The notes under the pieces are model-generated. The model was not told the DNA's origin, made no database searches, and saw only the letters and a program-made list of their open reading frames with translations. 64,000 nt of DNA. Origin: Ulota crispa (taxonomy: Eukaryota; Streptophyta; Bryopsida; Orthotrichales; Orthotrichaceae). Location of the stretch: assembly GCA_963920765.1 (NCBI GenBank), contig OY987244.1:4714501-4778500 (forward strand), given 5' to 3'. Positions 5,437 to 63,352 of this stretch are shown piece by piece (the stretch's first letter is position 1; each line of letters starts with the position of its first letter). The translations under genes and the position numbers were made by a program.

Positions 5437-5440
5437 TTAA

Positions 5441-5679
5441 CCCCTAAAGGCTGTTGTTGTATTGTATACTCTCTCTTATGTTGTTTACAAATGGGGTGTT
5501 TGGGTAGCACATGAATCCCATTGGAGTTGTAAATTTTAAGTCAAGTCAGAAACATGTCATTAGTCAACTAGGATTTTTTGGAGAGGTTTTGACATTTATC
5601 ATAAAGTCGTTTCTTCAAGTACTAAATGGTTATTATATGAATACAACCAACACTTTTGGTAGGCAACATCCTTTAGGGG
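5441..5679. mobile_element. TTAA-flanked MITE, copy A (239 bp)
   Basis: Starts CCCCTAAAGG and ends CCTTTAGGGG, with TTAA immediately outside both ends (5437-5440 and 5680-5683). The interior, inverted, matches the element ending at 27498, including the subterminal stretch with caccaaacacttttggtagg-like sequence, so this is a dispersed family. It has no coding capacity. Confidence 0.85.
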
Positions 5680-5683
5680 TTAA

Positions 5684-6427
5684 CCCCTAAGCGCCCAAGC
5701 CATTTTCACCAAAATTAGGGTTCACAAAGACCTAGAGCTTTGAAGCTTTGTATCTCAATCATTTGGATGATCCACAAGAAATGACCATTGAAAACAATTT
5801 GACACTTCCTTAGAAAATGGTTGCAAAATTTAGGGACACTTGATCATAGGAGATGGGAGATTATAACATCTGATGAAAGAACATGTGATGGCAAAATCTC
5901 ATTTTTTGGCAAGTAGTTGGTATTTGTTAATTTTTACAAAATTCTAAAAGACTCTACTTCACCCCAAATTTTGCAAGTGGCAAGATTAGGTGTTAGGAAA
6001 GTTATTGAAGGCCGTACTTCTCTAAATGTTAAGTTTTGAGGTTTCAAATTGACGCTCTACATGAAACGGTGACCCTTACAATTGGCGGGGGTTGCCACGA
6101 TAGATGTCTAAAATATGCTTGAACTTGTGTTTGCCAATCTCCCGCCATCACAAAGTACACACAAGCAAGCTTGCAACTGGTGTTAACAGCTTGCACCCCA
6201 CAAGACACTCTTTGCCACCCCACCATGTATAGTATTCCACCCAATTGAGGCTCACCAAGCATTTGTATGCCGTCAAGCTTCCTTTGTTATTACTCCACTT
6301 ACATGAACCACTTGAATATCTTGATAATTGTAATTTACAATAAGATCAAAAATCCAGATCTGGTCCGTCAAAATGGCTTGCAAAATTCTATGAGGACACT
6401 TTATGTCCTATAGGACATTGAGGGGGG
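5684..6427. mobile_element. TTAA-flanked element B (about 744 bp), abutting copy A
   Basis: Begins CCCCTAAGCGCCC directly after the TTAA at 5680-5683 that also closes copy A, so the two elements share one target site. The proposed right end is a run of G followed by TTAA at 6428-6431. The right terminal repeat is a weaker match than in other members, so that boundary is less sure. No coding capacity. Confidence 0.5.
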
Positions 6428-6431
6428 TTAA

Positions 6432-6947
6432 AGACACTAGAAAGGACGTATTTTCTCATTTGTGGATTTTGCATCTTCTTGTGTAGAAACTTCGTAATTT
6501 TTGAATGAGGGACATTCCATTAACAAGAGTTGCACACACCCAACAAGATAATTTGGATGAAAAACATCCATTGTCAGTAAAAATGACTCTAATCTAACCA
6601 TTGATACTGCCACTTTGACTTTTGCCACCTTCAGAAACCAAGAAGTATTACCAACCCCTATCAATATATATTTTTGAAACAACCACTCCTTTGTCGTCTC
6701 CATTCCACCAGAAACATGCTCACATTTTTCCAAATGTGCAAGAACTAGCAAAAACTGGGAAGAACTGGCTCCATTTTGCCACAAAAAAAAAATGCCCTAG
6801 CCCAATAAGATGAAAGAGGATTGAGGAGGCCCCCTTACCAATGATGGCTCAGAATGCAGGGACCCTGCTGGAGCAGGTCCCAGTAGTACCAGGGAGAGGG
6901 AGCCTTCCCAACCTCAGGTACAGATTCAGGGGAGTTTGGTAAACTTA
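6432..6947. other. Intergenic, no gene; GC-richer patch at 6830-6940
   Basis: No open frame resembles a known protein. The 6830-6940 patch is noticeably richer in G and C than its surroundings and contains a small inverted repeat (caggga-ccctgctggagcagg). Its origin is not clear. Confidence 0.4.
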
Positions 6948-7689
6948 GAGCATCTCCACCATGGGCTTCCCTATCCCCATCCCCAAATGGATGAAGATGG
7001 AGGGAAAATGGAGATAGGGATGGGGAAGCTCCACCAGTTCTTCCCCATCTCTAGTCATTCTTACCGGGGTCCTAAATTGAGATTTTAACATTGCTGGTTC
7101 TACTGATGTGCCATTAGTTTATGGGTTGGTATATCACTGGTTCTAATTGATGTGGCCGTGACTAATTCTAATTACTCATGTGCAAGACCACTTATTCATG
7201 TCTTATGTAATCAACCACTTATTCATGTCTCATGTACTCAACCACTAATTAAACTACTGATTAATGAAGTTGGATTATTAATTAGGTTACTAATTATTAA
7301 CTATAAATAACCAAAACATGGAATTAATTTAGTTTAAAAAAATTGGAAACAAAGTGACAATAAAATAATTTAGTAAATGTGATAATTCTCAAAAAGGGTT
7401 TAGAAAATAAATTAGGAGATAGGAAAACATTTTCTTCTTTTACAAAAGAGAAGAATCATGTAATTTTAAAAATCAAATGTATAGTTTTTCTTCTTGTAGT
7501 AAAACAAATATGTTGTCGTTTATCTTCTAATTTTGTCTCCATATTATTTTTTTATGGGGGCACATTTATTAAATTATTATAAGAGGAATTTATTTTCAAA
7601 TTAATGTAATTTTATTTATTGTTCTTTTCAATAACTGAGGCATGAAAAACATGTAACCTATGCTATGTATGAGAATTAGTTTGCCTTAA

Positions 7690-8539
7690 CCCTTAAAGGT
7701 CTGTGCATCCAAAAAGTAGATGCGCCTTGCTCAACCCTAATTGTAACTTTCAAAATATCAATTTTTGGTGCATGGTTCAATCTAAGAAAATGAAGCTTGA
7801 CAAGTTTCCTTTCTATTCATTTTTCTTTTTTGAAAAATGTCAAAAATCAAAAGAGTTATTGTCATTGAAAGCTCCAAGTGTTAAAATCCAAATAATACAA
7901 TATGGTGTGTTTTTCATTCATATTTTCTACTCTTTAAATGCATTTTAAATTTAAGCTACAAAATTATGTTTCTCATTCTACCATTCATTTATAATAGAAA
8001 TTATATACATTTTTAATATGTATTCTAATTGATATGATTTTATTCCCACATTTAGCTTTGAAAAAACACATTAATTCAAAATTTTCATCAAGCTTATCAA
8101 AAAAATTAGTTTAAATAGAAAATGAATGCGTCTTCTAGTAAAAATTATCAAAACTTTATAAGTAGATTCAATATAAGGATAAATTTGGTTTGATAGGCAA
8201 ATTTAACTTTAGACTATTTGTTGTGGTTGTTTTGGGTAAAATAAAATAACCAATTGAATTTTTTTCACCCTTATCTTTAATGCTACTTGTACCTTTTGAA
8301 AAAATTCAAGTAATTTGGATGTTTTTTGCTATTTTAACTTATTTATGTTCGTTTTTTGAAAAGAAAATGATAACAATTACAATATTTCATGAAACAATTT
8401 GAAATTTCTTGTAGTGATGTATTAGTCATAGTTTCAAGCAATTAAAATAGAAAATTGTTGTTTGAACTCACATTAAAAGGCAAAATTGAGCTTAGACATG
8501 AAGTTTGACCATTTCAAAATGGATCAAGTCCTTTAGGGG
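7690..8539. mobile_element. TTAA-flanked element D (850 bp)
   Basis: TTAA at 7686-7689 and 8540-8543; ends CCCTTAAAGG and CCTTTAGGGG. Its whole length is matched, inverted, by the element at 60972-63033, which carries two further insertions. The matched pair supplies the empty site (here TTCA at 8168-8171) for one of those insertions. No recognisable protein. Confidence 0.88.
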
Positions 8540-8904
8540 TTAACAACTAGAGTGTTTTATTCCAATAAAGTTAAATCATAAGACATAAAATTCATCAAAT
8601 ATTTTTGTAGATCTTTTTGTTTGTACAAATAATGATTTATGACCCCCAATTATTACAACATCAAATTCAAGAGTAGTTCATACTTATAGAACAACAACAT
8701 ATATTGATAGTGTCAAATGACAAGAACTTAATGCGGAACAACTTAACTTTATTATTTAAAAAATTTAGTATCCAAGCTCTAAATGATGTGCACCAATTAT
8801 ACTCATTAATTAGTAGTTTGAACTTAGCGTAAATCAATTATTGTAGCTTGAAAAACATTGGACACACAAGTGGTTCAATTATGATGTGATGGGTAATAAG
8901 TTAA

Positions 8905-9490
8905 CTTCTAAATGCCCAAGGCACCCAATTTGGGTGTTTACAAAACTTTGAAGATGAATAAAACTTTATCAAACCACTATTTTCAGTAAGAAATTCAATA
9001 CAGGTTTTTTTTAAAATCTATTTTCAATATCAAAAAATTGATTTTGAAAATGAATGCTGATGATTTTTCTACTCAAGCTTTTGTACAAGATGTCAATTGC
9101 AATCTTGATTTCCTTAGTGTTAGAAAATCTTTAAAACAAGCCTCAAATGCACTAGATTTTGAAAGCCGTAAATTGATTAAAGTTAGATATGTAATGACCC
9201 TAAACCTCATATTTTTTTGGTAACCAACTTTTTAGATTTGACACGTGAAATGAGGATTGGAAGACTTCAAGTCACCTTTGCAAAATGAAGACCCTCATGT
9301 TCAAACATTAGAATCTTTCAAAGTATAATTGATATTGTTGTGTATTTTTTCCATGTATTCTCTAACATGTTTAGCTAAAATTTGTATGATTGCAATTAAA
9401 AAGACATGATTAAGTTTATAAAAAGATTACTTGATTGTTCAGTTCATGGAAAATCAAAGAAGTTCAGAATAGCCTTGTGCATTTAGGGGG
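8905..9490. mobile_element. TTAA-type element C (about 586 bp)
   Basis: The left end is TTAA/CTTCTAAATGCCCAAGGC and the right end GCCTTGTGCATTTAGGGGG/TAAT. The terminal repeats match over about 18 bp with few changes, and the right TTAA has decayed. The subterminal AAATGCCCA word is shared with the 71-bp element at 32846-32916. Confidence 0.65.
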
Positions 9491-9773
9491 TAATAAAGGT
9501 GCCCAAGCTAGGGAGACATGGGTGTAGGTGGGTTGGTACAGGTGGGCTAGGAGGTGAATGAAGTAAAAAGCAAGCACTTTTTTTGGAAATAACAGGATAC
9601 GGTTTACAAAAACCGAGTTCCGTATATGGCCCTCTCAATACAGAACTAAGGTCCCCAGAAAATCTGAATCCCTATATATTTCCAGGTACAAGCGCCTGAT
9701 GGGGAGGTTTTTCCCCTACCCGGATGGAAATCATCCAGATACAGATACGGATGTCCTGCTGGTGGAGATACTC

Positions 9774-10531
9774 TTACACCATTTATGGAAGATGTCCGCA
9801 GTCCGCACTGTCCTAGAAACTAGAGCCGGACAAAAATGGTCAGGGGTCTAGATTGCAATCATTGCATGCACTGTCCAATAGACTCTCATTTGCAAGGAAG
9901 GGACCCAATCACAGTTAGGGGAGTTTTTTTTAAGCCCCTCAACGTCACAAAAGCCCTTTGTTGCCGTATGTATGGCCGTATGTGCAGACGTATTTGAGCT
10001 GCTTTGAGGGCTTTCCAAATTTTTTTACGCACCCACCATCATATAGCCCTTCAATATGTATGGTTGTAACACTTAATTTCTAATTGATTCAAACTTCTGA
10101 ATATTGGTTGTGATTGTATTTGGTACTATAACTCTAGAGCCCAAAGGCCCTTTAGGGGCTAGCTTAACCGGCCAATATCTTACATTCTCTTGGACCAATG
10201 GATTGTCTAGAGTATACTCCCAGCTAAGCTCATAGAAATAAAGAATATTCTATTTTTTTCTTCTTAAATGGTCAATTTTTTTCCTAAACTTTTGAATTCA
10301 ATTTGGTAATTCTCAAAATCAAACGGCTAGCTTGTAACTAAATGCTCATACTTCCCGTACATTAACTAAATGCTCATACTTCCCGTACATTGGACCCAAT
10401 CACCTTTCTCATATAGCAGGCCAATCAAGATTCATCTTGATTTGAATATGAGAGCGTGTTCCATCAAGACGCGTAGTTAAAGTAAACTTACACAAACTGT
10501 TTTGGAGCATGGGTTGAACTTTGATAAACTT
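9774..10531. repeat. Intergenic with a solo TTAA-family end and a 28-bp tandem duplication
   Basis: The segment ccctttaggggctag at about 10148-10162 looks like an orphan right end of the TTAA family. At 10335-10390 a 28-bp unit (taactaaatgctcatacttc and 8 more bases) occurs twice, head to tail and without change, which implies a recent slippage or duplication. No gene. Confidence 0.6.
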
Positions 10532-11792: not shown

Positions 11793-12684
11793 CCCCTAAA
11801 AGCCAATTGTCCCTATAAGGGACAAAATGGATTTAGAGCAAGCTTGGTCTACTGAGATTTTTTTCTCAAGTTCTTTAAACTATATTCATGAAATAGAGTT
11901 TTGCAAGGGCTACATGGGAATGTAATTTTTATTGAAATCAAATTTATGGCTCAGATGTTATTGGTGGTTTATGGTTTTCTTTTGTTCAATGGGCAGGTTG
12001 GAAATACTATTTTCCATTAACTTCTCCCAAGGGCAACTAATGAAGGCATGATCCTTTGTTGGAGTATATCCAAAGCAATATTGTATAGATAAACACATTA
12101 TTGTATTAGATAAAAGTAGTAGCTTAATCATGAAATGCAATAGCTACTAGAGATTTGGTAAATTATAAAAAAAAAATTGTGGCTATTTATAAAGATAAGA
12201 CTGTCTAGCCCATCATTGGGATTTTTAATTTTCAAAAACAACCATTGGAAATTACGTTTGCAAAAAACCTTAGTGTAGTGTGAATTTCAGCCATATGTTT
12301 GCAATACAAGCCCATGTAGGGAATATTCCTAGTTTTTATTGACCACAAAAAATTGTGGAAATATGCCTAACATGATTTGGAACATGTTAAGCTTATCTCT
12401 CCCACATCTATAGTGCAAAAAATGTCCATCACATGTGGTCAAAGGGCCTAAAATTTTTAGGCAAAGGTCAAAAACACTTTCTATACTAACTTCAAATGAT
12501 CAAATCACTCAATTTGTACAATCAAACCTTACAAATTTTTTGTCTTGGTTACTTTCATAAGTCTAATGCAAGATCTTGTGGTTAGATTTGTACAAAAAAG
12601 AAATAGATTACTTTGGATCAAATGTCCAAATATGGCAAATTTGGACTATTTTTTGATTAAAAAATGGTTTTGGGCGTTTAGGAT
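11793..12684. mobile_element. TTAA-flanked element H (about 892 bp)
   Basis: Left TTAA at 11789-11792 followed by CCCCTAAAAGCCAATTGTCC. The proposed right end is GGGCGTTTAGGAT/TTAA (12685-12688). The left terminal segment resembles the ends of elements G and Q (AATTGTCC...GGGACAAA...TGG). The right boundary is tentative. Confidence 0.5.
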
Positions 12685-13067: not shown

Positions 13068-13999
13068 CTCCTAAAGGACCACGCCATTTTTTTAGCAAAA
13101 ATCAATGAAAATTGCCACTTCTAGGGGATGAGTAAGAAAGTAGATTTTTCTTCTTCTTTTTAGAAGCCAACTATAGGATCTTGCCTTACACTAGAAGAGG
13201 TACTTGGTGGGAAAAATCGGGTCATTTTGGATGGAAAGAAGGGAGATATTTACATCTGAAGCAAAGGGTAAAGGTTTTTCTCCTTGTTACCAATAAATTT
13301 CAGAAGCTTTTGACCTCTCTTCCATGAAAAAAATTGCTCTACCCAAAGTTGTGCTTTTATTTTTCCATGTAGGAGATCAAGTTAGGTGTACGTGGGAGAA
13401 TTTTCAAATCAATTTGAACTATACAACACATGGGAAAAAAATATTAAGTAAAAAGAAGTAGAGAATGAGTCAAAACACTAAATTGTTTAGAACTTAATTA
13501 TTGAAATGAAAAATGCAAATCCCAACAGTTGTAATGTTGTAATAAACAATCTACTTCCTTTTGTTTAATTATTTTTCAAAATATTAAAAATTGAGTAAAA
13601 CAAAGGACTTCAAAATTTATTTTAGAGTAGAGAATCCATAACTGCTTGCAAACAAAAACTCCTCATAACTTTCATATCATAGATTGAAATTGAATGATTT
13701 GAAGCTTCCCACATAAAAAAAATCTAAAGAACCAATTTCAAATTTTTTATTTTTAAAAGGTGTACTTTTTAAAGAGGTTTTTTGGGTTGCCAGTACTACC
13801 CCTCCTCCCCTAGTTTCAATAAAATCTTGCGTAACCTCTTTGTCAAATGTCCATATGAAGAAAAAACTAGATGCCCACGTAGATCTCTAAATTTCCCACC
13901 TTCAATAAAAGTTTCAAAAAATCACACAAATTAGCTTATCCAAATGTGCATGCCCAAAATCCCATTTGTTCCCCTTAAGAGACAATGGTCCTTTAGGGG
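13068..13999. mobile_element. TTAA-flanked element G (932 bp)
   Basis: TTAA at 13064-13067 and 14000-14003; ends CTCCTAAAGGACCACGCC and GGTCCTTTAGGGG. Its two halves are related to those of the elements at 41624, 50607, 59819 and (inverted) 29653: a left module with TTGCCACTTCTA and TAGGATCTTG, and a right module with CCCATTTGT...GACAATGGTCC. No protein. Confidence 0.88.
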
Positions 14000-23345: not shown

Positions 23346-23428
23346 CCGACCATAGCTCAGTTGGTAGAGCGGAGGACTGTAGAGTTGCAGATATCCTTAG
23401 GTCACTGGTTCGAATCCGGTTGGTCGGA
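23346..23428 (+). tRNA. tRNA-Tyr (GTA) with a 10-nt intron
   Basis: A full cloverleaf can be drawn. The acceptor CCGACCA pairs with TGGTCGG, followed by discriminator A. The D arm is AGCTCAGTTGGTAGAGC, the anticodon stem GAGGA/TCCTT and the T arm ACTGG-TTCGAAT-CCGGT. The anticodon GTA is at 23379-23381. The intron 23383-23392 sits one base 3' of the anticodon, the canonical nuclear position and a constant feature of plant tRNA-Tyr genes. The internal A and B boxes serve as the Pol III promoter. Confidence 0.96.
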
Positions 23429-27290: not shown

Positions 27291-27498
27291 GGTGTCTTAA
27301 AGGATGTTGCCTACCAAAAGTGTTTGATGTGGGCTTTATGACAAATGCCAAAAATTCCCAAAAAATCATAATTAACCAATAGTATGTCTGTGACTTGGCT
27401 TAAGTTTTACAACTCAAATAGAATTCATATGCTACCCAAATACCCACTCTGTATACAGAACAAGAGAACGAATACAATACAGCAACATCCCTTAGGGG
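27291..27498. mobile_element. TTAA-type MITE, second copy of family A, left end decayed
   Basis: The right end CCCTTAGGGG/TTAA is at 27485-27502. The body is the inverted relative of 5441-5679. The left end retains only TTAAAGGATGTTGCC, so the outer CCCC and TTAA are lost or mutated. Confidence 0.75.
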
Positions 27499-28674: not shown

Positions 28675-28678
28675 TTAA

Positions 28679-29585
28679 CCCTTTAAGGACCACGCGACCA
28701 TATTTTGGTTGCTGGGAGTGGTTTTTGGCTTGTAGGTTGAAATCGCTCAATAATTTGGAATTTGGTCTTGAAGTACACATGTGATCACAAGAATTTTGCA
28801 TCCATCTAAACAAATAACAATGCAATTGGGTATGTGAGTTGATAAATAATGGTGTTTATACGGCATGGCTTCAAAATACGTATCCAATTTTTGTCAAAGA
28901 TGGATCAAAGCAACAACACAATACATCAAGTATGCAAGAAGAATGTCAAAATTCAATTGCACAATTCTAAAAAATTTCCATTTGCTTAAGAAATACGCTT
29001 GTATTGTTTTCATATACGATAGTAGTATAATTGTAGTATTTGAAGATCTATTGAAATATTGTTGTCATTTTGGCTTTAAATTTTGTCATCCTACATTTAA
29101 GGCCAATTCTTGATTGTTTTCACCAATTGGATTTTCCAAAATAATTATCAAATTTCTTGTAGAACCATTTTAGGGTAGCAAAGAAAGTGGGTTTTTTGAC
29201 CCTTTTTGTCCACTTAGCTACACCTTGTGATTGCTATTTTTGTTTATTTTGTGTGAACCTAGTCTTGTTGGAAAGGTGGGAAACCTTGCTTTCTAGAAAT
29301 GTAAGGCTCTTCTCAATCAAAGCTTGCATGAAAGGTTAACATTCAAAACTAAACAAGAATGAAACACAAGAGATTTTCCCCATACGGCTCACTCAATCAT
29401 TATAATATTTCATCTCCAACGGTAGATCTAGCTGAAATTTTGATGCTTTAAAGCAAACAAGGTGCACTTCCCATTTGTACAGTTGGATTATTGAAAATGG
29501 GTCCATATTTGAGTCAATTCCAAATCTAAGCTTACAACCCCTGTTTTCAGTGGATTTTGTGAAAATGGGTGTGGTTGTTAAAGGG
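28679..29585. mobile_element. TTAA-flanked element E, copy 1 (907 bp)
   Basis: TTAA at 28675-28678 and 29586-29589; ends CCCTTTAAGGACC and TTAAAGGG. A second copy of exactly the same length lies at 61643-62549. The interiors appear identical over about 850 bp, while the outer 45 bp on the left and 10 bp on the right differ. An 82-codon open frame (28865-29113, MASKYVSNFCQRW start) is identical in both. It has no recognisable domain, and its conservation is explained by recent copying. Confidence 0.92.
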
Positions 29586-29652
29586 TTAACTCAATGAGAA
29601 TATAGATAACAAAAAAAGATTTTCTAGTTGTTTTTATTACTAAATTTTTTCA

Positions 29653-30946
29653 ACCTATAAACCAATTGTCTACTCAAGGGACAAGTGGATTTTGGGCATG
29701 TATCTATAGCTAAACTAGTTTTTGTGATTTTTGAAAACTCTTATTGAAGGTGGGGAATTCAAAAACCTACGTAGGTATCTCATTTTTTCTTCATTTCAAC
29801 ATTTGACAAAGAAGTTATCAAGATTTTTTCAAAACTAGGGGAGAAGGTGTAGTTTGAGCAAGGCCTCTCCTCTGTAAGGAGAATCAACTAGAAAGTGGTG
29901 CAGCTAGCAAAGGGCAAAATCACCAATTGCTTGGGCAACAAAATCCAAGGGCAAATGTGTTAGACTCACACTGACAAGCTCTAGATTGGTCTAATAATAG
30001 CTTGAAGGAGGGGCCACGCCACACATAACAATGGAATTTATAGACTAGAGTGACCCTGCAGAATACGTGTCAGCAAAAGAAGCACAACTGGGCGTGGAGC
30101 AACAAGAGAGTGAGTGCAGAGCAAACAAAGAGCAGTTCCAAGCCAAGTAGGGAGTGGTCCTTGGCCGGACATGGAGCGGTTTGTGGTCGGTTGGGGAGCA
30201 GTTGAAGGTTAGGCAGAGCAAGGAATGGGCCCCTTCAAATTGTTAGATTTGCAAGAGGCCTGCATGTGCTGCCTTGTGGCAACTACCGTAGGGCAAGGAT
30301 GTGGCTAGGGAGATGGAAGTGAAGGGGCCCGTGCCAAGTGTCCTTGGATCCCCCTATCTCATTTGCTCGCTTCAAAATTACTACAAATTCTTGATATCAA
30401 TTTATTGAGCAACTTTTGGATTTGTATTATAATTATTTTCCTTTTTCAAGTGGTAATGGACTAAGATTCCAATGTCTCACAGTTTTGATCAATGTAATTT
30501 GAATTTTTGAATTCAACATAAAATCTCCAATTTTGCATAGTGTATTTGCAAATTTTTTTACCTTTTGGCATTCAAAGATTGTTTGAAGGATGTTGTACTC
30601 TCCAAGTGATCTAAAAATTCTCCCACATATACCTAACTTGGTTTTCTACATGGAAAAATTAAACCTCAACTTTGTAAAGCAATTTTTTTGCTATAAGAGT
30701 GGTCAAAAGCTTCTGAAATTTTTGGGGAGGAAGGAAAAAAACTTTTTTTTCACTTCAAATATCAATATCTCACTAGTCTATATCTTGAATGAGCCGATTT
30801 TTTCCTACAAGCATCTCATAGTCTAGGGCAAGATCCTATAGTTGGAATTTCAAGAAAAACTTTTGTTCCTACCTTTCTACTCATTCCCCCAAAAGTGGTA
30901 GTTTTGAGTGATTTTCACATAAAAAAAGGGCTTGGCCCTTTAGGGG
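29653..30946. mobile_element. TTAA-type element J with a GC-rich internal insert (about 1294 bp)
   Basis: The left end (TCAA/CCTATAAACCAATTG) is decayed. The right end GGCCCTTTAGGGG/TTAA is at 30947-30950. Read on the minus strand, it has the same module order as the elements at 13068 and 50607. Between about 29850 and 30370 the usual AT-rich interior is replaced or interrupted by a much more GC-rich segment with many GAGC/GGAG words (for example GTGGAGCAACAAGAGAG), perhaps a nested insertion. Confidence 0.7.
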
Positions 30947-32845: not shown

Positions 32846-32916
32846 CCTCTAAATGCCCACGGTATCAGATCTAAGTGTTGAAAACACCCAAACTGGATGC
32901 CGTGGGCATTTAGGGG
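32846..32916. mobile_element. Minimal 71-bp TTAA-flanked hairpin element L
   Basis: TTAA at 32842-32845 and 32917-32920. The ends CCTCTAAATGCCCACGG and CCGTGGGCATTTAGGGG pair over 17 bp with one mismatch. The inner part (GTGTTGAAAACAC) can fold again. The terminal word AAATGCCCA links it to the element at 8905. Confidence 0.88.
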
Positions 32917-38616: not shown

Positions 38617-39322
38617 TCCCTAAAGGACCATTGCCCCCTTGGAGGACAAACAGGATTATGGGCATGTACTTACAACTAAATCACTTTGTGTGATTTTTAA
38701 AACTTTTATGGAAGATGGTGAATTCAAAGATCTGGGTGGGAATCTATTTTTCTTCATTCCGACATTGAAGAAGTTATGCATGAATTTCTAGAAAAAGGGG
38801 GAGAGTGGGGAGCCCAAAAACTTCTTTAAAAATTGCATTTTTTTGAAATGAAAATTTGAAAATGGTTCTTTAGATGTACACATGTGTGGGAAGCTTTGAA
38901 TCACTCATTTTTGATTGATGAGATGAAAGTTATGAGAAGTTTGAGTATGCTGGTACCATACCTACCCGCGAACTACAACTTCTCATAACTTTCATCTCAT
39001 CAATCAAAATTGAATGACTCAATGCTTCCCACATATGCGTATATCTAAAGAATCATTTTCAAATTTTCATTTTAAAAAAAAAAAGCAATTTTAAAAAAAG
39101 TTTTTGGGCTGCCCAAGTTGCCCAATAAACAAAGAAAACTACACATCATGCAATAACTTTTGAACCATGTAGCCATAAGTTATAAAAATTGTTGGACCTT
39201 AAAGCTACTCCTTGGACCCATCATGTTTTAAAATTTTCAAAGAGAAAATATAAAAACCCCTTTAAAGGTGAGCTGCCCGAAACCGCTATGTTGCCAAAAA
39301 ATGTTGTTCAGGGCTTTAGGAG
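38617..39322. mobile_element. TTAA-flanked foldback element M (706 bp)
   Basis: TTAA at 38613-38616 and 39323-39326; ends TCCCTAAAGGACCATTGCC and GGGCTTTAGGAG. The centre is a palindrome of about 140-bp arms (about 38800-38945 and 38975-39125) around CTGGTACCATACC. The arms are the same sequence as the right module of elements G, N' and Q, so M looks like an inverted duplication of one half of that family. Confidence 0.85.
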
Positions 39323-41623: not shown

Positions 41624-42518
41624 CTCTAAAGGATAACGGCCTTTATTATGTCAAAAGACATTTAAAATTACTATTTCTATGGTAAAGAGTAAAAAAGTTT
41701 GAAAATTGATCTTTTTGCATATCTAACCGTAGAATCTTGTACTAGACTTGTATAAGAATTTAAAGAAAAAAATTCAAAAATTTTGACCACACAAATTGCA
41801 AGATATTTGCTTTTAAAGTGTAAAGAAAACTTTTTTGCACATGATTAGATTATTTGATTTTGAACTTTAACTTAAATTTTTTGTATCATAGAGTTTGGAA
41901 GTTTAAATCTTTATGGTGGAAAATTGAGTTGAGAATCTTTGGAAAAAGAACCAAAACAAAGAATACTTAATTTTCATTCTTAAAAAAAAAGGGGGGTAGA
42001 AGAAGGAATGAGATTGAACAAAAACTTGAATTATTAATTACCTTGCAATGGTATTGAAACACAATAATCCCAATGGTGAGATTGTTCTAGCAAGCAAACT
42101 TCACCCTTTCCAACATTTTTTTTTGAAAAAATGTTAAAACTTGCATTCAAAAATGAACTTTATAAATTATCTTTTCAAGAAGATGTTTAAATTGCCCAAA
42201 TAACTTTCTCATAACTTGTCCAAATGGAATGAATCAAAGCTTCAGATGTAGACTAAGATATAATCTTTGAGATTTATTTTTTGAATAAATCAAGTTTTTG
42301 TAAAACAAAGTTCTATTGCTTGGACTCCCCAAATTTGTGCTTATGTGGGCATAACTTTTGCTTCCACGCATAGATTGAAATAAAAGTTATATTCTCCCAA
42401 AACTAATGTATTTATCTATCTTGAAAAAAGTTTCAAAAAATCAAGACAAAAATTGAGGTGGTAAGTACTTGCTCAGAATCCCATTTGTCCTCCCAAAGGG
42501 AAAACTTTCTTTTAGGGG
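41624..42518. mobile_element. TTAA-flanked element N, copy 1 (895 bp)
   Basis: TTAA at 41620-41623 and 42519-42522; ends CTCTAAAGGATAACGGCC and CTTTTAGGGG. It matches 59819-60737 in the same orientation over most of its length (shared words GTCAAAAGACA, TTTGCATATCTAACCGTAG, CAATAATCCCAATGGTGAG). The two copies differ in the right-hand third. Confidence 0.86.
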
Positions 42519-43650: not shown

Positions 43651-46600
43651 CTATTGAATCTCTTGCTCCAAAGTATTGAGTCGCCGCATTCTAATGCCAT
43701 GAATAAGTTGGCAATGTGTACATAATGGAAGGGCTTTGGTGAAGAGTTCCGCAAGCTTATTTGCCGATATGACTTTCTTGATTTCAAGTGCTTGCGCTGT
43801 AATCAAGTCATGGATGTAGCTAAAGTATTTGGGATCAATATGTTTTGGTCCAATCACCTTTAATAAAACCCGCTTGCATTTGTGCAACACAAGCACTATT
43901 ATCTTCATATAAAATAGTTGAAGAATTATTATATGATAATCCTTAATTTGTTTGAATAAACTTATCAACGGATTTCAACCAAATGCATTCCCTAGAAGCT
44001 TCATGTAAAGCAATAATTTTTGCATGATTAGATGATGTTGCAATTAGTGTTTGTTTTACCGATTTCCAAGATATAGCAGCTCCATGCCTTAAGAAAACAT
44101 AACATGTTTGAGACTTGGCTGTTGCAGGATCAGATTTATAACCAGCATTAGTATACCCAACCAATATAGGATTTGCTAATTTAAAATAATGCAATCCCAA
44201 ATCTTTAGTCCCTTGTAAATAACAAAGAAGATGTTTGATACCATTCCAATGTCAAAGTGTTGGACGGGCACTATGTCTTGCAAGTACATTGATTGCAAAT
44301 GCAATGTCAGGCCTTGTAGATGTAGCCAAATATAAAAGCGCTCCAACCGCAGCGAAGTATGGATATTGTTCACCCAATGGTTCCTCCTCCTCCTTGCAAG
44401 GACAATAAGGTCCTTCACTATTGTTACTCCAACCAACCATAGGCGTAGATAACGGGTAAGCATCCGTTATATTAAACCTTTTCAATACTCGGTTTATATA
44501 AGCCTATTGGGAAAGAAATATGCTACCATTTTTCAAGTGAATCATTTGTAAGCCAATGCAAAAGGTAGTTTTACCAAGGAGTTTCATCTGAAACTCATGA
44601 ATAAGTAATTTTGTAGCTGCAATACATGCTAATTTGGTGCCCACAAGGTTTGAATCATCAACATATATCGCAATGATCACAAATCCATGGTTATCTCTTT
44701 TAATAAAAAGACATGGCAACAATGGATCATTTATAAAGTGATGCTCAACAAGATAGTTCCGCAATTATTGATACCATATGCATTCATATTGCTTAAGACC
44801 ATATAACGCCCGTTGTAATTTGACACCACAATATTTTTTTGGAATAGGGGTGACTTGCTTATTGGTTTTGAGGCCAAGTGGAACCTTCATATAAATATTA
44901 TTATGAAGAGAATCATAGAGATAAATAGTAGCAACGTCCATAAGACGCATTTCCAATGTAGTGTGTACGGCCATTCCAAGAAGATATTGGAATGTAATAG
45001 AATCCATAGCCGGTGAATATGTAGATACATAATTAACTTTAAAATTTTGAGTGAAACCCTGAACCAAATGCACTTTGTAACAAATGATTTGTTCTTTGTC
45101 ATCCTGTTTGCGCACAAATATTAACTTGTATCCAAGAGGCTAAGAAGAAAGATTATTAATAATTGGTCCAAAAATTTGTCTCTTACGCAAAGAAACATAC
45201 TCCTCTTCAATAGCGGCTTTCCACTTCATCCAATCAGAGCAACGCATCGCTTCATCAATAGTCATTGGTTCAGGATTATCTTTCTTGCAAGAAAGATATT
45301 ATGCAATCATACAAATAAATGTTTCATTTATGTCAATAGTTACTCTGTCTCAAATATCATGTGTATTGCAATACATCATAGATAATTCAATATCTGACTT
45401 GGGAATATTATGTTCAGAAACAAAATTTTCTTCCTCAGGAGTTGCAAATCCCATAAAAGTAGAAGTGGTTGCTGTAGGAGTAGATGAAATAGTCTTGCGC
45501 TTGCGTGGTTGTTTATCAAATCCACAAGTCCGCTTGCCCACCAATTGCAAAGTTGGAGTAGAAACGGTTTTTGGAATTGAAACTTGAGCAGGGAGATTTT
45601 GAGCTTCACTTAATGGAGTCTTGGTTATCCTTGGTGCATCATTGAAATCATCAAGTGTTTGATCCGCAATCTTTTGCAAATGCAAAATTTTAGCAACCTC
45701 AGTTTTAGCCAAAGATGTTCGAGGATCAGGGTTCAATGTAAATACTTCAGTTGCCTTAAATATAATGCCATTAGAATGCTCCTGAATAGATGCTTCTTCT
45801 TGAAAAGATGGAATCTCATCCTCTTCAAATCAACAATTGGCAAAACGAGCTCAAAGCAACGTACGAGTGTAAGGATTGATATAACAAATAATGCTTAGAG
45901 AGTTAAATCCAATATAAATGCCTTTTTGTTGACGAGCTCCAATAGTATGGCATTAGGGTTCTGGAACTGGAACCTATACACAACAATCAAACACTTGCAG
46001 ATGAGATACATTAGGAATACGCCCTGAAATAAGCTCTTATGCAGAAGCATTCTCCAAAGAAGAAGCGCGGAGTCAAATCAAAGCTGCTTGTAAAACTGCA
46101 TGTCCCCACATAGATGCTAGCAGGTTTGAGTGAAGAAGCAATGGTCTTGTAATAAGCTGAATCCGTTTGATAAAAGACTTTGCCAATCCATTTTGAGCAT
46201 ATTCATATGGAAGTGAATATGTTAAATCAATCCCTGTTGCAATACAATAGTCTTCAAAGGATCTTCATCGAAATTCCCAAGCATTATCCATACGTAATGT
46301 CTTGATTGAATAGTCAAGGAAATGGGCTTTGAAGCGGATCAACATTGATAATAAATTGACAAAAACCAAATTTCTTACTGATAATAATGAGACATGTGAT
46401 TGCTTGCTTGGTGCATCAACCAAAACCAAAAAATATTGGAATGGTCCTGATATAGGATTTATTGGACCACAAATATCACCATGTAGCCTTGAAAGCATTG
46501 GTGGTAATTTATGAGGAAGCTTCCATAATGATGGTTTGGCAATCAATTTGCTTTGCACTCATGCTTGACATAATTTCATAGAATTTACGTTTGCAACTTG

Positions 46601-47164
46601 CAGATTGTGTCCAGCAACACAAGGAATAATTTTCCTAAACAATGTAGAACATGGATGACCAAATCGTCCATGCCAGAGTGAAATTTTATTATCTTTAGAA
46701 GATATAGCAAAATTGTATACACTAGGTGGCCGGATTGCAATCCAATACAAACCACTTGCCGCAGCAAAGGCTGTTTCCACAATTTTATTATTAAACATAA
46801 TAACCAAAGCCTCACGACTATCTAGAATTTTGGTCGAGAGGTGAAAACCCTTGGCGCACACATCCCAATAGCTGATCAGACTTTGGGGGGCAAAGGGAGA
46901 ATACATAGTACGCATGCATGTAATGGTGGTGCCCTCATGCAATATCACCTTTGCTGGCCCCTCCTGGAATTGAAACACATTCAATCTAGCCATAGTAATA
47001 AAACTTTTGGTTTTCCAAGATGAAAGATTATGTTCATCAAAAAAATGTTTATTATGCAAAATTGTATGTGTTGTTGCAGAGTCAAGGAGGACATCAGATG
47101 ACTCACTGGTATGAGTGTTTTCAACAACATATACTTTGAAAACCTCAGCTTCAAATGGATCCAT
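43651..47164 (-). pseudogene. Copia pol remnant: protease, integrase, reverse transcriptase, RNase H
   Basis: 47164-46559 carries a protease-like DSATTHTI site and the GAG-pre-integrase region (LWHGRFGHP). After an in-frame TGA, 46558-46265 continues into the integrase core (HGDICGPI, LVLVDAPSK). A poorly conserved linker follows (45736-45350). Reverse transcriptase follows at 45115-44765 and, after another stop, 44764-44504 with the YVDD catalytic box. 44485-43651 holds the RNase H region (VGYTNAGYKSDP, SCH-like HAKIIALHEASRE) in shifting frames. At least two nonsense codons and several frameshifts rule out a functional polyprotein. Confidence 0.88.
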
Positions 47165-47218
47165 AGACGCATCTATGGAATGAGCCTCTTGAGCTTCAGC
47201 TCACAGCTTTTTGTTGTC

Positions 47219-48142
47219 CTAGAACATTTTTATAAAATATTCCAATGTACGACAACTAGTGGCCAAATGACCCACTCTGCCGTACTTGTGACAAGAACGC
47301 GTCTCTAGTGGACGCTTACCATTATTATTAGAAGGAGTGGTATTCTCCTTTGGAACATGGTGATTAGGACGTCTAGACTGACCTGAGTGTTTATACTTAT
47401 TTTTCCTATGTTTCTGTGCCTTAGACATGACACTAAAAACTTTAACAACATAAGACTCAAGAACCGGGGTACCAACTAGATGTGACTTTGCATTACAAAG
47501 TAAGAGTTCGTTTTGCTTTTTGGCAAGAAGTAACAGAGACATGAGATCTAAGAGAATCTCATATTTCATGTTTCTGTATTGTTGTGCAAGTACAACAGAG
47601 GCGGGTGGAAATGTTGAGAGAGTTTTTTCAATCATTTCCTCCTTAGTGATAGCCCGACCGCACAACCTCAACTGCGATACAATACAAAATAATTCACTAT
47701 TGAAGGAAACAAGTGTTGGAAAATCCAACACTCGTAGATGAGTCCAATCATGTAGGGCTCTAGGAAGAAAAATGGTTTTTTGGTTATCAAAACAAGACTT
47801 GAGCTTATTCCAAAGCTCATTAGGATTTTTGACCTCTAGGTACTGATATTGTAAAGATGGAGCAAGATGGCGACAAAACAAAAGTAATGCTTTGTAAGAC
47901 ATAGCTGTTAAATCAGTGGTACTTACAGTAGAAGGCTGATTAGAAGGGTTATCAAACGCAATGCACTGGGATAATTGCTCCCCATAAACATGTGCTTTTG
48001 CAGTTCTTGCCCATAGAAGGTAATTGCTCCTATCAACCTCCAATTGTGCAAAGAGAAGAGGCTGAAGCCTTGGTGCTTCAACGTTGGGAGTAGCTGCTGG
48101 CACTACAACAGATGTGGTAGCAGAAGAACGTGAAGTAGCCAT
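47219..48142 (-). pseudogene. Copia gag (UBN2-type) with altered zinc knuckle
   Basis: Open for 307 codons from ATG 48142, about 65 bp after the 5' LTR. The N-terminal two thirds have the UBN2 capsid-like pattern (FAQLEVDRSNYLLWARTAKA, NPNELWNKL). A zinc-knuckle-like CHKYGRVGHLATSC lies near the C-terminus, but its second Cys is Tyr, so metal binding is doubtful. The product would form the virus-like particle. The frame is intact, but pol behind it is broken. Confidence 0.85.
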
Positions 48143-48869: not shown

Positions 48870-49092
48870 CCCTTAAACGTCACGGGCATAATAGATACAT
48901 TGCCGTATATTTGGCATTTGCTACCAATAAATTTTTTTAACTTGGGATCTCAAATAGCTTACTAGAATTGCATTTATCTATATTCTAACTTCTTTGTTGA
49001 TCTCAAATGTAGTAAAGGTGTGAATCCGGTCCAAATACAAGAAAATACCCCATATTGTACTGATTGCAAAGGGTCTTTTTGATGTTTAAGGG
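48870..49092. mobile_element. TTAA-type MITE, family O (223 bp)
   Basis: Left TTAG/CCCTTAAACGTCACGGGC and right TTTGATGTTTAAGGG/TTAA (49093-49096). Inverted relative at 35314-35545. The left TTAA has one change. Confidence 0.78.
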
Positions 49093-50606: not shown

Positions 50607-51514
50607 TCCCTAAAGGACCAAGCCCTTTTTCAGTGAAAGCTACTAAAAACTGCCACTTTTATGGGAATGAGTACAAAGGTAGGAAAAACAATTATTTTTG
50701 GAAATCCAACCATAAGATCTTGCCCTAGACTATGGGAGGTACTTGTGGAAAAAAATCAGCTCATCCTAGATGTAGAGGAGTGAGATATTGACATTTGAAG
50801 TGAAAAAAAGTTTTTTCCCCCTGCTGCCCAAAATTTTCAGAAGCCTTTGATTGCCTCTAAATCAAAAAAAATGCTCTACGCAAATTTGAGGTTTATTTTT
50901 CCCATGTAGAAGACCAAGTTAGGTAAGTGTCGGAGAATTTTCAAATGAATTGGAGGTGTGAATCATACTTTGTAAAATCTTGCAATGCTGTAAGGCCATC
51001 AAATTTGCATACACACTAGGCAAAATTGGAGGATTTATGTAAAATTTAGAAATGTGAATTACTTTTATCCAAATGGTGAAAATCAAGGAGTTTTAGTCTA
51101 CTACAACAAGGAAAAAAAAATAAAAAAAAAGATTCACAAAGAGCATAAAAAAATAAAGCACCAAAGGCAAAAGGAATGGAAGTATGGGAGTTCCATACCT
51201 GCCCGCAAACTAAAACTTTTCACTCATAAATTGAAATTGAATGATTCAAAGCTCCCCACATATTTCAAATTTTTTGTTTGAAAAAATATTATTTTTAGAA
51301 AAGTTTTTGGTTGCCTGATCTCCCTTGTTTTTCAAAAATTCATGCATAACTTCTTCAATAAATGTTGGAATGAAGAAAAAATTAGATGCCCACGTAGGTC
51401 TTTGAATTCCTCATCTTTCATAAGAGTTTCAAAAAATCATACAAAGTAGTTTAGTTTTAAGTACATTCCCAAAATCCCAATTGTCCCCCAAAAGGACACT
51501 TGGTCCTTTAGGGG
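50607..51514. mobile_element. TTAA-type element P (about 908 bp)
   Basis: Begins TCCCTAAAGGACCAAGCCC after TTAT and ends GGTCCTTTAGGGGG. The left module matches the right end of element J and the left end of G (TAAGATCTTGCCCTAGACTATG). The right module matches G. Its right end runs straight into element Q, with no TTAA between them. Confidence 0.75.
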
Positions 51515-52223
51515 GCCCAAGGGCCCTTTTGGGAGACAAATGGAATTTCAGGCATGTACCTATGGCTAAACTACTTTGCATGATTTTCTGAAACTTTTAT
51601 TGAAGGTGAGAAATTCAAAGATCTATGTGGGAATATAGTTTTTTCTTCATTCCGACATTTATTGAAGAAATTAAAATGAATAATTGAAAAATAGGGGAAT
51701 CTGGGCAACCTAAAAACTTCTTTAAAAATTGCATTTTTTTTAAATAAAAATCTGAAATAGGTTCTTTAGACTTATATATATGTGGGGAGCTTTGAATCAT
51801 TCAATTTTGATAAATGAGATGAAAATTATGAGAAGTTTTAGTTTGCAGGTAGGTGTGATTTCTCTTGAAATCACACCTACCTGCAAACTGAAACTTCTCA
51901 TAACTTTCATCTCATTTATCAAAATTGAATGATTCAAAGCTCCCCACATATATATAAGTCTAAAGAACCTATTTCAGATTTTTATTTGAAAAAAACGCAA
52001 TTTTTAAAGAAGTTTTTGGGCTGCCCAGATTCCCTTGTTTTTCAATTATTCATTTTTAATTCCTTCAATAAATGTTGGAATGAAGAAAAAATTACATTCC
52101 CACGCAAATCTTTGAATTCCTTACTTTCAATAAAAGTTTCAAAAAATCACGCATAGTAGTTTAGCCATAGGTACATGCCCGAAGTTCCATTTGTCCCCCA
52201 AAGGGACAATGGGCCTTTAGGGG
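51515..52223. mobile_element. Near-perfect hairpin TTAA-type element Q (about 709 bp)
   Basis: The arms 51540-51855 and 51885-52200 are inverse copies of each other with few mismatches. They meet at GTAGGTGTGATTTC/GAAATCACACCTAC. Both arms are the right module of the G/N/P family (CAAAGATCT, CATTCC, GGCATGTACCTATGGC), so Q is an inverted duplication of that half. The right end is GGCCTTTAGGGG/TTAC; the left TTAA is missing at the junction with P. Confidence 0.85.
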
Positions 52224-58539: not shown

Positions 58540-58609
58540 CTCTGACCAGGCAGTAGCACTCGTGCTATTATACACACCGGGTAAGCAGCTCACTGGCTCT
58601 ACAGGATGG

Positions 58610-59386: not shown

Positions 59387-59818
59387 CTTCGCTAGCTGCC
59401 ATGGCTGTGGCTGTACAATAAAATGCAGCCATGGACGATTGGACGGACGATCGTTAGATCTTTTTGTCGTGGCCAGTCTGGCTGGGACAGACGCGACCGT
59501 TCTGCCGTCTCGCTCTCTGCCGCCCATGGAGATCTGGCAATGTCATTTACCACGAGATAAAAAATTCATCAAAGCAAAGCAAAGGACATCAATATCTATA
59601 ACAGAAAGCGAAATGAATATGCACGGCTACGAAATCGTTTTCGGTGGAAAACTAAGTCAAAACAAACTTCGATCTGCGGTAAGTTCGATCTATGGATTGC
59701 TAACACTATGGCCTGTGTAAATCTTAGTTCTACTGTGTGCAGGAATTGGATAAAAAGCAATGTGCTCAAGCCTCAAGGGCTCTGGCACCATCTCCGACAT
59801 CGCTGTAGGTTTCTTTAA

Positions 59819-60737
59819 CCCCGGAAGGACCATGGCCATTATTTTGTCAAAAGACACTCAAAACTGCCACTTCTATGGCAAAGAGTAAAAAAGTTTGAAG
59901 ATTGGTCTTTTTGCATATCTAACCGTAGGATCTTGTACTAGACTTGTATAAGAATGTGCTATTCAAAACTTAAAAACTTTAACCTGACAGATTGCAAGAT
60001 ATTTGCGTTTAAAATGTAAAAAACAAGCTTTTTTGCACCTTGTACGATTAGATTATTTGACTTTGAACTTTTTTAACATTTTTGCACCATGGATTTTTGA
60101 GGTTTCTTTTTTTATGTTGGGGAATTGAGTCAAAAATCTTTGGAAAAAAACCAAAACAAAAAATACTTTATTTTCATTCTTCAAAAAAACATTAAATAGA
60201 AGAAGGTTTGAGAATTGAACAAAATCTTCTATTGTTAATAATCTTGCAATGGAATTGAATCACAATAATCCCAATGGTGAGATTGTTCTAGCAAGCAATC
60301 TTCACCCTTTCTAATAGTTTTTTTTGCAAAAATGTTAGATTTGCATTCAAAAATGAAGTTTATAAGTTATTTTTTTAGAGTGAAACCACACTTATCTGCA
60401 AACTAAAGCCTCTCATAACTTTCATCTCATCTATCAAAATTGAATGATTCAAAGCTCCCCATGTCTATATAAGTCTAAAGAACCTATTTCAGATTTTTAT
60501 TTGAAAAAAATGAAAATTTTAAAAAAGTTTTTGGCTGCCCCTTGAACAGCTATTTTCAAAAAAATATGTATAACTTCTTCAATAATTGTTGGAATGAAGG
60601 AAAAATTACATTCCCACCTAGATCTTTGAATTCCTCACCTTCAATAAAAGTTTTAGAAAATCACGCAAAGTAGTTTAACCATAGGTACATGCTCAAAATC
60701 CCATTTGTCCCCCGAAGGGACAATGGTCCTTTAGGGG
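59819..60737. mobile_element. TTAA-flanked element N', copy 2 (919 bp)
   Basis: TTAA at 59815-59818 and 60738-60741; ends CCCCGGAAGGACCATGGCC and GGTCCTTTAGGGG. The left two thirds match 41624-42518. The right third matches the arm of the hairpin element Q (TCTCATAACTTTCATCTCAT), so it looks like a recombinant of two family branches. Confidence 0.88.
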
Positions 60738-61232
60738 TTAAATAAACGCGCGTAGAGTCGGAGTTTAAAGAAACCCTGATAGAGATGAAGCGCGCGTGCT
60801 TTTAACGAGAAGATTGTAGAAGAAATTCTTCATGGAGCTCGATTTGTACCGCAGTACCAAAGTAGAAAATAATTAATGCAAAATCATTGTGGTAGTAGTA
60901 GTCCTAATCAAACAATTGTTTGCCATGAAAATCTAAGCTAAATATTGCATTTAGGTTGCCTTAACAATTAACTCCTAAAGGACTTCATCCATTTTGAAAT
61001 GGTCAAACTTCATGTTTAAGCTTAATTTTGTCTTTTAAAGTGTGTTGAAACAACAATTTTATATTTTTATTGCTTGAAACTATGAATAAAATATCACTAC
61101 AAGAAATTTTAGTTTGTCTCATGTAATTGTTATCGTTTTTTTTCAAAAATTGAAAATAAATAAGTTAAAATAGCAAAAAAAATCCAAATTACTTGAATTT
61201 TCTTCAAGAGATACAAGCAGCATTAAAGATGA

Positions 61233-61533
61233 AATAACATTCAGTATCACTCAGTGGGCCTGCCCTCCCTCTAAGTGAAGAGTATGGAATATTCCACACC
61301 CATCTTTAGCTATGCGGACACTTGGCTGAATTTGTCAGAGAGTTCATGAAAGAGAGGCTCAATTTAGTGCACATACGTCGATGTGGGGGCTAGCCATGTC
61401 AAAAAAATTATTAAAATACAATGAAATAATAAAATAAATAATATAAAAATTTGTGTGTTTGTTAGTATGAAGTTTGTGGATGAGACTTGAAGAGAGGGAA
61501 AGGTAGCCTCTCTTCAGGCTACTAAATGTTATG
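61233..61533. mobile_element. Unclassified insertion F in element D' (about 300 bp)
   Basis: Absent from the homologous position of element D (8269-8280). The ends ATAACATTCAGTA and TACTAAATGTTAT are a short imperfect inverted repeat. The target duplication is not clear. The interior is GC-richer on the left and AT-rich in the middle. Confidence 0.6.
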
Positions 61534-61642
61534 GAGTGTGAAAAAATTTCAATTGGTAAATTTATTTTTTACACCCAAAATAACCATAACAAATAATTTA
61601 AAGTCAATTTTACTATCAAACCAAGTTTATCCTTATATTTAA

Positions 61643-62549
61643 CCCTTTAAGGACCAGGCGACCGTATTTTGGTCTCTTGGAGTGGTTTTTGGCTTGTAGG
61701 TTGAAATCGCTCAATAATTTGGAATTTGGTCTTGAAGTACACATGTGATCACAAGAATTTTGCATCCATCTAAACAAATAACAATGCAATTGGGTATGTG
61801 AGTTGATAAATAATGGTGTTTATACGGCATGGCTTCAAAATACGTATCCAATTTTTGTCAAAGATGGATCAAAGCAACAACACAATACATCAAGTATGCA
61901 AGAAGAATGTCAAAATTCAATTGCACAATTCTAAAAAATTTCCATTTGCTTAAGAAATACGCTTGTATTGTTTTCATATACGATAGTAGTATAATTGTAG
62001 TATTTGAAGATCTATTGAAATATTGTTGTCATTTTGGCTTTAAATTTTGTCATCCTACATTTAAGGCCAATTCTTGATTGTTTTCACCAATTGGATTTTC
62101 CAAAATAATTATCAAATTTCTTGTAGAACCATTTTAGGGTAGCAAAGAAAGTGGGTTTTTTGACCCTTTTTGTCCACTTAGCTACACCTTGTGATTGCTA
62201 TTTTTGTTTATTTTGTGTGAACCTAGTCTTGTTGGAAAGGTGGGAAACCTTGCTTTCTAGAAATGTAAGGCTCTTCTCAATCAAAGCTTGCATGAAAGGT
62301 TAACATTCAAAACTAAACAAGAATGAAACACAAGAGATTTTCCCCATACGGCTCACTCAATCATTATAATATTTCATCTCCAACGGTAGATCTAGCTGAA
62401 ATTTTGATGCTTTAAAGCAAACAAGGTGCACTTCCCATTTGTACAGTTGGATTATTGAAAATGGGTCCATATTTGAGTCAATTCCAAATCTAAGCTTACA
62501 ACCCCTGTTTTCAGTGGATTTTGTGAAAATGGGTGTGGTCATTAAAGGG
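61643..62549. mobile_element. TTAA-flanked element E', copy 2 (907 bp), nested in D'
   Basis: TTAA at 61639-61642 and 62550-62553. Same length and near-identical interior as 28679-29585. The aligned unoccupied site in element D shows one TTAA-like word (TGAA in this orientation), so the insertion duplicated exactly TTAA. Confidence 0.95.
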
Positions 62550-63035
62550 TTAATTCATTTATAAAGTTTTGATTTTCTTTTTGCTAGAAGACATTTTCAT
62601 TTTCTATTTATTTTATTTTATTTGGTAAATTTGATGGAAAATTCAAATTATTATGATTATTTAAAGCTAAATGTGGAAATAAAATCATATCAATTAGAAT
62701 ATATATTTAAAAAATATGTAGTTTCTACTATAAATGAATGAAAGAATGAGAAACACAGTTTTGTAGTTTAAATTTAAAATGAATCCAAAGAGTAGAAAAT
62801 ATGAATGAAAAACACATCATATTGTGTTATATGGATTCTAACACTTGGAGCTTTCAATGGCAATAACTCTTTCAACTTTTGACATTTTTCAAAAAAATTG
62901 AATGGAATAGAAAGGAAACTTATCAAGCTTCATTTTCTTAATTTGAACCACATACAAATATTTGATATTTTGAAAGTTACAATCAAGGTTGAGCAAGGCG
63001 CATTCACTTTTTGGATGCACAGACCTTTAAGGGTT

Positions 63036-63352
63036 AAGGTAGGAGCACCCATAAGCGTTAGTGTCCCCATAACCGTCACCTTTTAAAATATTGGAAAATA
63101 TGTGGAAATGAATAGATGTAATTACAAGGATGTACAACATGTGAACATGAAACCTTAGTGTTGATTATGGGTGCAATGGCAACTTGCTCTTTAATAATTC
63201 ACAAATTATTCTCACAATATCCAAATAATACATTCAAAAGTGCAAACTCATTATTTTTTTGTTCCTAATAGGATCCTATAATTTGCTAGACGTTTATTAA
63301 TAGTCATCATATTCAAAACCCTTAAACTGGGGCTTATGGGTGTTCGTACCTT
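63036..63352. mobile_element. MITE R with AAGGTASGARCACCCATAAG ends (317 bp)
   Basis: The left end AAGGTAGGAGCACCCATAAG and the right end CTTATGGGTGTTCGTACCTT are inverse repeats with two mismatches. The left end overlaps the TTAA of element D'. Class unknown. Confidence 0.7.

Follow-up and report, generated by a model that had tools for sequence, protein, structure and literature searches.

Short TTAA-flanked elements in the Ulota crispa genome are very probably non-autonomous members of the piggyBac superfamily

Introduction

A 64,000-nt stretch of the genome of Ulota crispa (Bryopsida; contig OY987244.1; C3:4714501-4778500, in the following called the window) harbors a number of short elements with TTAA on both sides and inverted ends that start with CCC. 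This raises the question of which transposon superfamily the elements belong to and which enzyme may have moved them. A first-pass annotation, made from the letters of the window alone, had read them as a piggyBac-like (or Sola3-like) superfamily in a land plant. Our analysis supported the piggyBac reading, and we conclude that the elements are very probably non-autonomous, MITE-like members of the piggyBac superfamily (MITE, miniature inverted-repeat transposable element). This is supported by a 4-bp duplication of TTAA, by many piggyBac transposases in the same genome (120 matches to PF13843), and by an element at locus L040 that carries a transposase between TTAA/CCCYT ends and is present in three copies.

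The piggyBac transposase is known mainly from animals. A passage of a 2014 paper on common bean places piggyBac in animals or other organisms only (PMC4093653). In a 2024 review, a sentence on plants includes PiggyBac among the class II superfamilies it enumerates; otherwise piggyBac is treated there as a borrowed tool (PMC10794571). No described plant family was found in a literature search on plant piggyBac and TTAA MITEs, with most subscription journals outside its coverage. The earlier statement that there is no well-characterised land-plant family held for the literature searched, in which the review passage lists PiggyBac in a plant context.

Results

The end sequence is highly abundant in the window and in the genome

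Most elements measured about 0.07-1.3 kb and had inverted ends of ~13 bp (CCCCTAAAGGACC and variants) at TTAA. The 17-mer TTAACCCCTAAAGGACC matched 27 times in the window at ≤3 mismatches, compared to 0.24 expected matches and a maximum of 2 in 100 shuffles. The end word and its inverse had been described in the right orientation, paired and facing. Facing ends were paired up, and an element was called complete when TTAA was present on both sides. This resulted in 12 complete elements; together with the decayed ones they covered 13,576 bases, close to the 14 kb estimated before. Open reading frames (ORFs) of ≥110 amino acids were not found within the 12 complete window elements.

The scan of the whole assembly (274.8 Mb, 157 contigs) that had been proposed in the first-pass annotation gave 4,072 and 4,082 exact matches of TTAACCCCTAAAGGACC on the two strands (8,154 in total; reversed control 0 and 0). 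At ≤1 mismatch the numbers were 10,119 and 10,021 (20,140 in total; reversed control 0 and 1). A chance origin of the end word was ruled out by the 27 versus 0.24 matches in the window and the 8,154 versus 0 matches genome-wide. Seven of eight loci excised around genome-wide matches of the 17-mer had a facing partner end, with elements of 740-950 bp. Assuming two ends and a length of about 0.9 kb for each element, we estimate this end family at roughly 4,000-10,000 elements, which would amount to 4-9 Mb and 1-3% of the genome.

TTAA is duplicated as a 4-bp target site

For the analysis of the flanks we combined the window with two 100-kb samples (264 kb) and picked ends by their inner 13 letters at ≤2 mismatches. 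Outside the 48 ends obtained, the frequencies were 0.85 for T, 0.88 for T, 0.90 for A, and 0.79 for A, and the next base outward was unconserved. All four letters of TTAA were kept in this tabulation, which followed an earlier suggestion; flanks keeping only TA or TAA, an outcome that would speak against piggyBac, were looked for and not seen. C was present at end positions 1-3 at 0.96, 0.92, and 0.98, values that are inflated since the ends were chosen by likeness.

A Tc1/mariner or Stowaway-like family that duplicates TA and strongly prefers TTAA as its target has to be considered here, as TA is part of TTAA and the two models cannot be told apart by empty sites alone. Under a TA duplication, in which A would be the first letter of the element, conservation of the inner A is expected to be much higher than that of the outer T. 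We counted genome-wide matches that deviate at one of these two positions and are exact at the 16 remaining letters. There were 325 changes of the outer T and 286 of the inner A (4.0% and 3.5% of 8,154; reversed controls 0 and 1), so that both decay alike.

We also paired ends with off-type flanks. The set comprised 96 VTAA ends, the first in the list, together with 100 listed ends of the TTAB type, and covered C1, C2, and the beginning of C3. In 11 of the 13 facing TTAB/VTAA pairs, among which there may be duplicated genome segments, the identical 4-mer was present on both sides (9 TTAG, 2 TTAT). The control pairings (TTAB with TTAB, VTAA with VTAA) gave 1 pair each, and independent decay predicts about 1.2 TTAB/VTAA pairs, one third of them alike. 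That 11 of 13 pairs had matching off-type 4-mers on their two sides indicates that four bases were duplicated; a TA duplication does not produce this. Together with the 325 versus 286 changes this ruled out a TA duplication, against which the first-pass annotation had already argued, and makes a Tc1/mariner origin highly improbable. The remaining two pairs were TTAT/TTAG; they belong to ~929-bp elements at C1:40368651 and C2:18681410, both in the same sense.

PIF/Harbinger and hAT elements are among the usual plant MITEs, and their TWA or 8-bp duplications could in principle be misread as TTAA. The base outside TTAA was unconserved, the listed flanks showed no longer duplication, and the duplication comprised four bases, so that such an origin is hardly credible. 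A Harbinger-like 3-bp TWA duplication was ruled out by the conservation of the flanks and the 11 of 13 off-type pairs. No autonomous relative of the mariner or Harbinger type turned up, with no dedicated search for either completed.

Off-type targets were used at about 2.5%, a rough value obtained by extrapolation from the 17 exact pairs found in the initial 2.14 Mb of C1. For insect piggyBac, 2% off-type sites, chiefly CTAA/TTAG and ATAA/TTAT, are given in a passage of PMC6651600 quoting Li et al. 2013; a small sample in the same paper contained other off-type sites. The off-type rule in U. crispa closely agrees with the figures of Li et al. as quoted in that passage.

Single TTAA sequences were found in three of six alignments to related empty sites (L033 at 94% identity, L034, and position 5996 of a C1 sample). 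Pairing of ends blind to the flanks gave 33 pairs, with TTAA on both sides in 19, on one side in 9, and on neither side in 5; several of these pairs were forced or hairpins and rows L001-L008 had been fetched by TTAA, and the result was not used as proof. We conclude that TTAA is a true 4-bp duplication at the window elements.

The genome encodes many piggyBac transposases

The genome-wide search with DDE_Tnp_1_7 (PF13843), also proposed earlier, yielded 120 matches over the cut-off, many of them nearly full length (best E 1.3e-73). As 116 of 528 candidates were scored, the genome contains at least 120 matches. None of 14 control genomes had a match. ORFs from five fetched loci matched PF13843, and the L037 ORF also matched PDB 6x67 ("Transposase", E 3.6e-20), which we take to be the Trichoplusia ni piggyBac enzyme, and piggyBat 9c0f (E 1.4e-16). 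The piggyBac transposase has three catalytic aspartates. The first two were aligned in L037, and the region of the third one read KGVDIVDQ in L038, HGIDVVDQ in L041, and GGVNVGDQ in L037.

A C-terminal cysteine-rich motif was present in L038, L040, and L041 (3 of 8 loci scanned, with the scanned stretch of L042-L044 probably beginning too far downstream for it). L037 had a partial motif in another frame. The transposase ORFs were about 31-66% identical to each other over most aligned stretches (27% over one short stretch), and thus represent several transposase lineages. A tblastn search of the ORFs from the five loci against the window gave no match at E 1e-3, in line with the earlier statement that no transposase is present there.

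The ends of transposase elements resemble those of the short elements

The L040 element has TTAA-CCCCTCATCGCCA at 967 as left end and TTAA-CCCTTCATTGCCA at 5985 as right end, with the transposase domain at 3488-4624. With L040:800-6250 as a query, copies were found on C10 (90%, 164-5191) and C8 (88%, 164-5190), both of which start with the left TTAA, its first letter included, and end where the right TTAA ends, give or take one base. Since two further copies stop at the same TTAAs, the boundaries of this ~5-kb element (967-5985) are fixed. It is the one element for which TTAA and CCC-starting inverted ends are known on both sides of the transposase.

A TTAA-CCCYT right end in the correct orientation was present 3' of the transposase in five of eight loci (L037, L040, L041, L042, and L044); for L042, another copy of the element also ends at this TTAA. 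The chance of TTAACCCYT is 17% per stretch, which gives P about 0.005 for five of eight, with the reservation that the choice of the stretch was made with the first loci already known; two of the three loci fetched later have the end. A DNA search with L037 for its element ends mapped no ends, and the matches were dominated by an unrelated ~400-bp repeat. This repeat (L037 6468-6870, listed copies 92-94% identical) fills most of the top matches for L037.

Eight ends were compared (both of L040, the left one of L038, and the right ones of L037, L039, L041, L042, and L044). Five of them fit CCC[C/T]TNANNG[A/C]C, as does CCCCTAAAGGACC. The L037 end CCCTTTAGCGACC differed at 2 of 13 positions from CCCTTTAAGGACC, the end of the 28679 family of the window.

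Could the short elements instead belong to Kolobok or Sola3, the piggyBac elements of the genome being coincidental? Both superfamilies duplicate TTAA, the TTAA duplication alone cannot separate superfamilies, and a transposase element with an exact CCCCTAAAGGACC end was not found among the loci read. However, the ends of Kolobok are AGG-like, whereas the end pattern of the short elements is similar to that of this genome's piggyBac elements, with TTAA followed by CCC[C/T]T. In addition, piggyBac shares TTAG and TTAT as off-type sites, as far as given in the passage quoted above. We therefore regard an origin from Kolobok or Sola3 as improbable, and membership in the piggyBac superfamily as the better explanation.

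A conserved segment is present upstream of the transposase domain

A conserved segment of ~90 amino acids with the core W/L-R-x-L-x-x-x-x-IAK-x-LG was found 5' of the transposase domain in L037, L038, and L040 (Table 1). L041 had a weak match (E 0.026) with a stop. The L037 segment (93 amino acids) as a query gave 90 genome matches at E ≤1 and 46 at ≤1e-3, with one place in two rows. In 21 of these 46 rows, L037 included, a listed transposase domain was present 1.2-3.7 kb downstream on the same strand. This number is a lower bound because the list of transposases is partial. No row had a transposase domain solely on the wrong side or strand, and the chance per match is about 0.2%. No credible match to the segment was found in Pfam (E up to 0.1) or among PDB sequences, and NCBIfam gave a single row at chance level. 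The segment may constitute a protein of its own, or else a first exon.

One family has probably moved recently

With the 927-bp element at window positions 59815-60741 as a query, 8,616 first-look candidates were obtained, and the 40 that were scored, itself aside, were 88-93% identical. TTAA was present on both sides in five of eight fetched copies, itself included. The 915-bp query (28675-29589) gave 2,415 candidates; among the 40 scored, one other copy had 99% identity, the rest had 94-95%, and two further pieces had 85% and 81%. These candidate counts are loose, and related families overlap in them.

Over 907 bp, the copy at 28679-29585 has 99.2% identity to the one at 61643-62549, at a distance of 33 kb, and the next scored relatives have 95% identity. 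The second copy is also located inside an older element. This points to a recent and perhaps local movement of the 907-bp family, possibly a local hop. Gene conversion would also explain the 99.2% identity of the two copies. At C3:27254184-27256913, three copies of this family are found in a row.

Individual elements and other features of the window

The coordinates of all elements are listed in Table 1. The 11 elements that had been annotated as complete were all recovered as such, and the element at 11793-12684, which had been called decayed, proved to have TTAA on both sides. The decayed elements at 8905, 27291, 29653, 35314, 48870, and 50607 were also recovered; position 51515 turned out to be an internal junction of 50607-52223. 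The nesting of 61643-62549 inside 60972-63033 had not been recognized before.

Table 1. Elements of the window and the upstream segment of transposase loci
Feature	Position	Strand	Remarks
Complete element, 239 bp	5441-5679		right TTAA 5680-5683 doubles for another left end at 5684
Complete element, 850 bp	7690-8539		homologous copy at 61643 without insertion
Decayed element	8905-9489		left TTAA, right GTAA
Complete element, 892 bp	11793-12684		TTAA both sides
Complete element, 932 bp	13068-13999		right end exact CCCCTAAAGGACC
Decayed relative of 5441	27291-27498		166 bases at 79% identity; right TTAA present, left end missing
Complete element, 907 bp	28679-29585	+	left end CCCTTTAAGGACC; 99.2% identity to 61643-62549; young
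Decayed relative of 13068 group	29653-30946		left end lost, right TTAA kept
Complete element, 944 bp	31174-32117		TTAA both sides
Complete mini-element, 71 bp	32846-32916		TTAA both sides
Decayed element	35314-35545		left TTAT, right TTAA
Complete element, 706 bp	38617-39322		TTAA both sides
Complete element, 895 bp	41624-42518		left inverted end short by one C
Decayed element	48870-49092		left TTAG, right TTAA
Composite/rearranged copy	50607-52223		kin of 59819, 38617, and 29653 elements; TTAT/TTAC; internal junction near 51514
Complete element, 919 bp	59819-60737	+	TTAA both sides
Complete element	60972-63033	-	inverted homologue of 7690-8539; split by 61643-62549 and a ~300-bp insert of another kind
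Complete element, 907 bp, nested in 60972-63033	61643-62549	+	related empty sites: window 8271-8021 (TGAA), L034 (single TTAA)
Upstream segment	L037 1094-1372		
Upstream segment	L038 5977-5690	-	
Upstream segment	L040 1648-1950		

The ~300-bp insert inside 60972-63033 is located at about 61203-61520; the homologous element 7690-8539 lacks it, and TTAA ends were not observed on either side of the insert. One TTAA common to neighboring elements (GGGGTTAACCCC) was observed at window positions 5679-5684, C1:1097596-1097601, and C2:5099573-5099578, an arrangement that looks as if the TTAA of one element were a favored target for the next. Elements of exactly 71 bp, which is very short for a transposon, were found in three places (window 32846-32916, C1:1072868-1072938 in L016, and L040 725-795), with TTAA, TTGA, and ATAA as left 4-mers and TTAA on the right. 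The element at 59815-60741 had no match in a phage collection.

An HD-Zip gene (homeodomain and HALZ) in the window supports the plant setting, as HD-Zip is specific to the plant lineage. Remains of a Copia-type retrotransposon (gag and pre-integrase matches) were found at 44765-48142 on the minus strand, bracketed by 128-bp repeats at 43275 and 48352 with 97% identity. A tRNA gene was identified at 23346-23428 on the plus strand (Rfam).

Discussion

The short elements were most likely moved in trans by piggyBac-type transposases of ~5-kb relatives located elsewhere in the genome. The transposase would cut at the element ends, followed by insertion into TTAA and occasionally into TTAG/CTAA or TTAT/ATAA. 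We infer that the transposases of this genome move the CCCCTAAAGGACC elements. By analogy to insect piggyBac, for which a hairpin-based, seamless transposition chemistry is established, the same chemistry may apply to these elements.

A number of observations weigh against this interpretation. The main gap is that no transposase element with an exact CCCCTAAAGGACC end was found among the eight loci read, and the membership of the short elements therefore rests on TTAA, the likeness of the ends, and the behavior at the target site. The L042 end CCCCTAAGCACCC differs from CCCCTAAAGGACC at 4 of 13 positions, and three of the eight ends compared (L039, L041, and L042) are one letter off the common pattern. 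L039 has TTAA-TCCTT on the right, and the stretch read in L038 and L043 contained no right end. A search for the left ends of the L037 and L039 elements found neither, and in L038 the left end was seen only as ATAA-CCCCTTAGGGCCC. Stops are present in 110 of the 120 transposase rows. Five of the eight fetched copies of the 927-bp element had TTAA on both sides and three did not, and the other three of the six empty-site alignments showed TGAA (window 8271), CCAA (L005), and a gapped joint with TTTA on the left.

New here are the 4-bp duplication, the transposase sequences, the mapped transposase element, the off-type rule, and the upstream segment. We consider it likely that these belong to a plant piggyBac lineage with its own upstream segment, which was recently active, gave rise to at least ~4,000-10,000 mini-elements (~1-3% of the genome), and follows an insect-like off-type rule. 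If a native, recently active population exists in a plant, a percent-scale share of such genomes would be overlooked by annotation of transposable elements that ignores TTAA elements. Gene-delivery tools could draw on such a population for a piggyBac adapted to plants, and the arrival of piggyBac in plants, by descent or by transfer, becomes testable. An off-type rule common to the insect enzyme and plant fossils also bears on how the enzyme reads its target.

Kolobok/T2-MITEs and Sola3 have the TTAA duplication in common with the elements described here, but their end letters differ. With the piggyBac superfamily (6x67, piggyBat 9c0f), the U. crispa elements share the DDE_Tnp_1_7 domain, the aligned aspartate motifs, the C-terminal cysteine-rich motif, the TTAA duplication, the CCC ends, and, as far as the quoted insect figures go, the off-type sites TTAG/CTAA and TTAT/ATAA. 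In contrast to known piggyBac elements, they reside in a plant genome, have the ~90-amino-acid segment 1.2-3.7 kb upstream of the transposase domain, and form a very large MITE population. The piggyBac-derived MITEs of animals are short, flanked by TTAA, and have CCC ends, and the same is true for the window elements. Unlike those MITEs, the window elements are found in a plant host and comprise several subfamilies with little in common beyond ~13 bp of the end.

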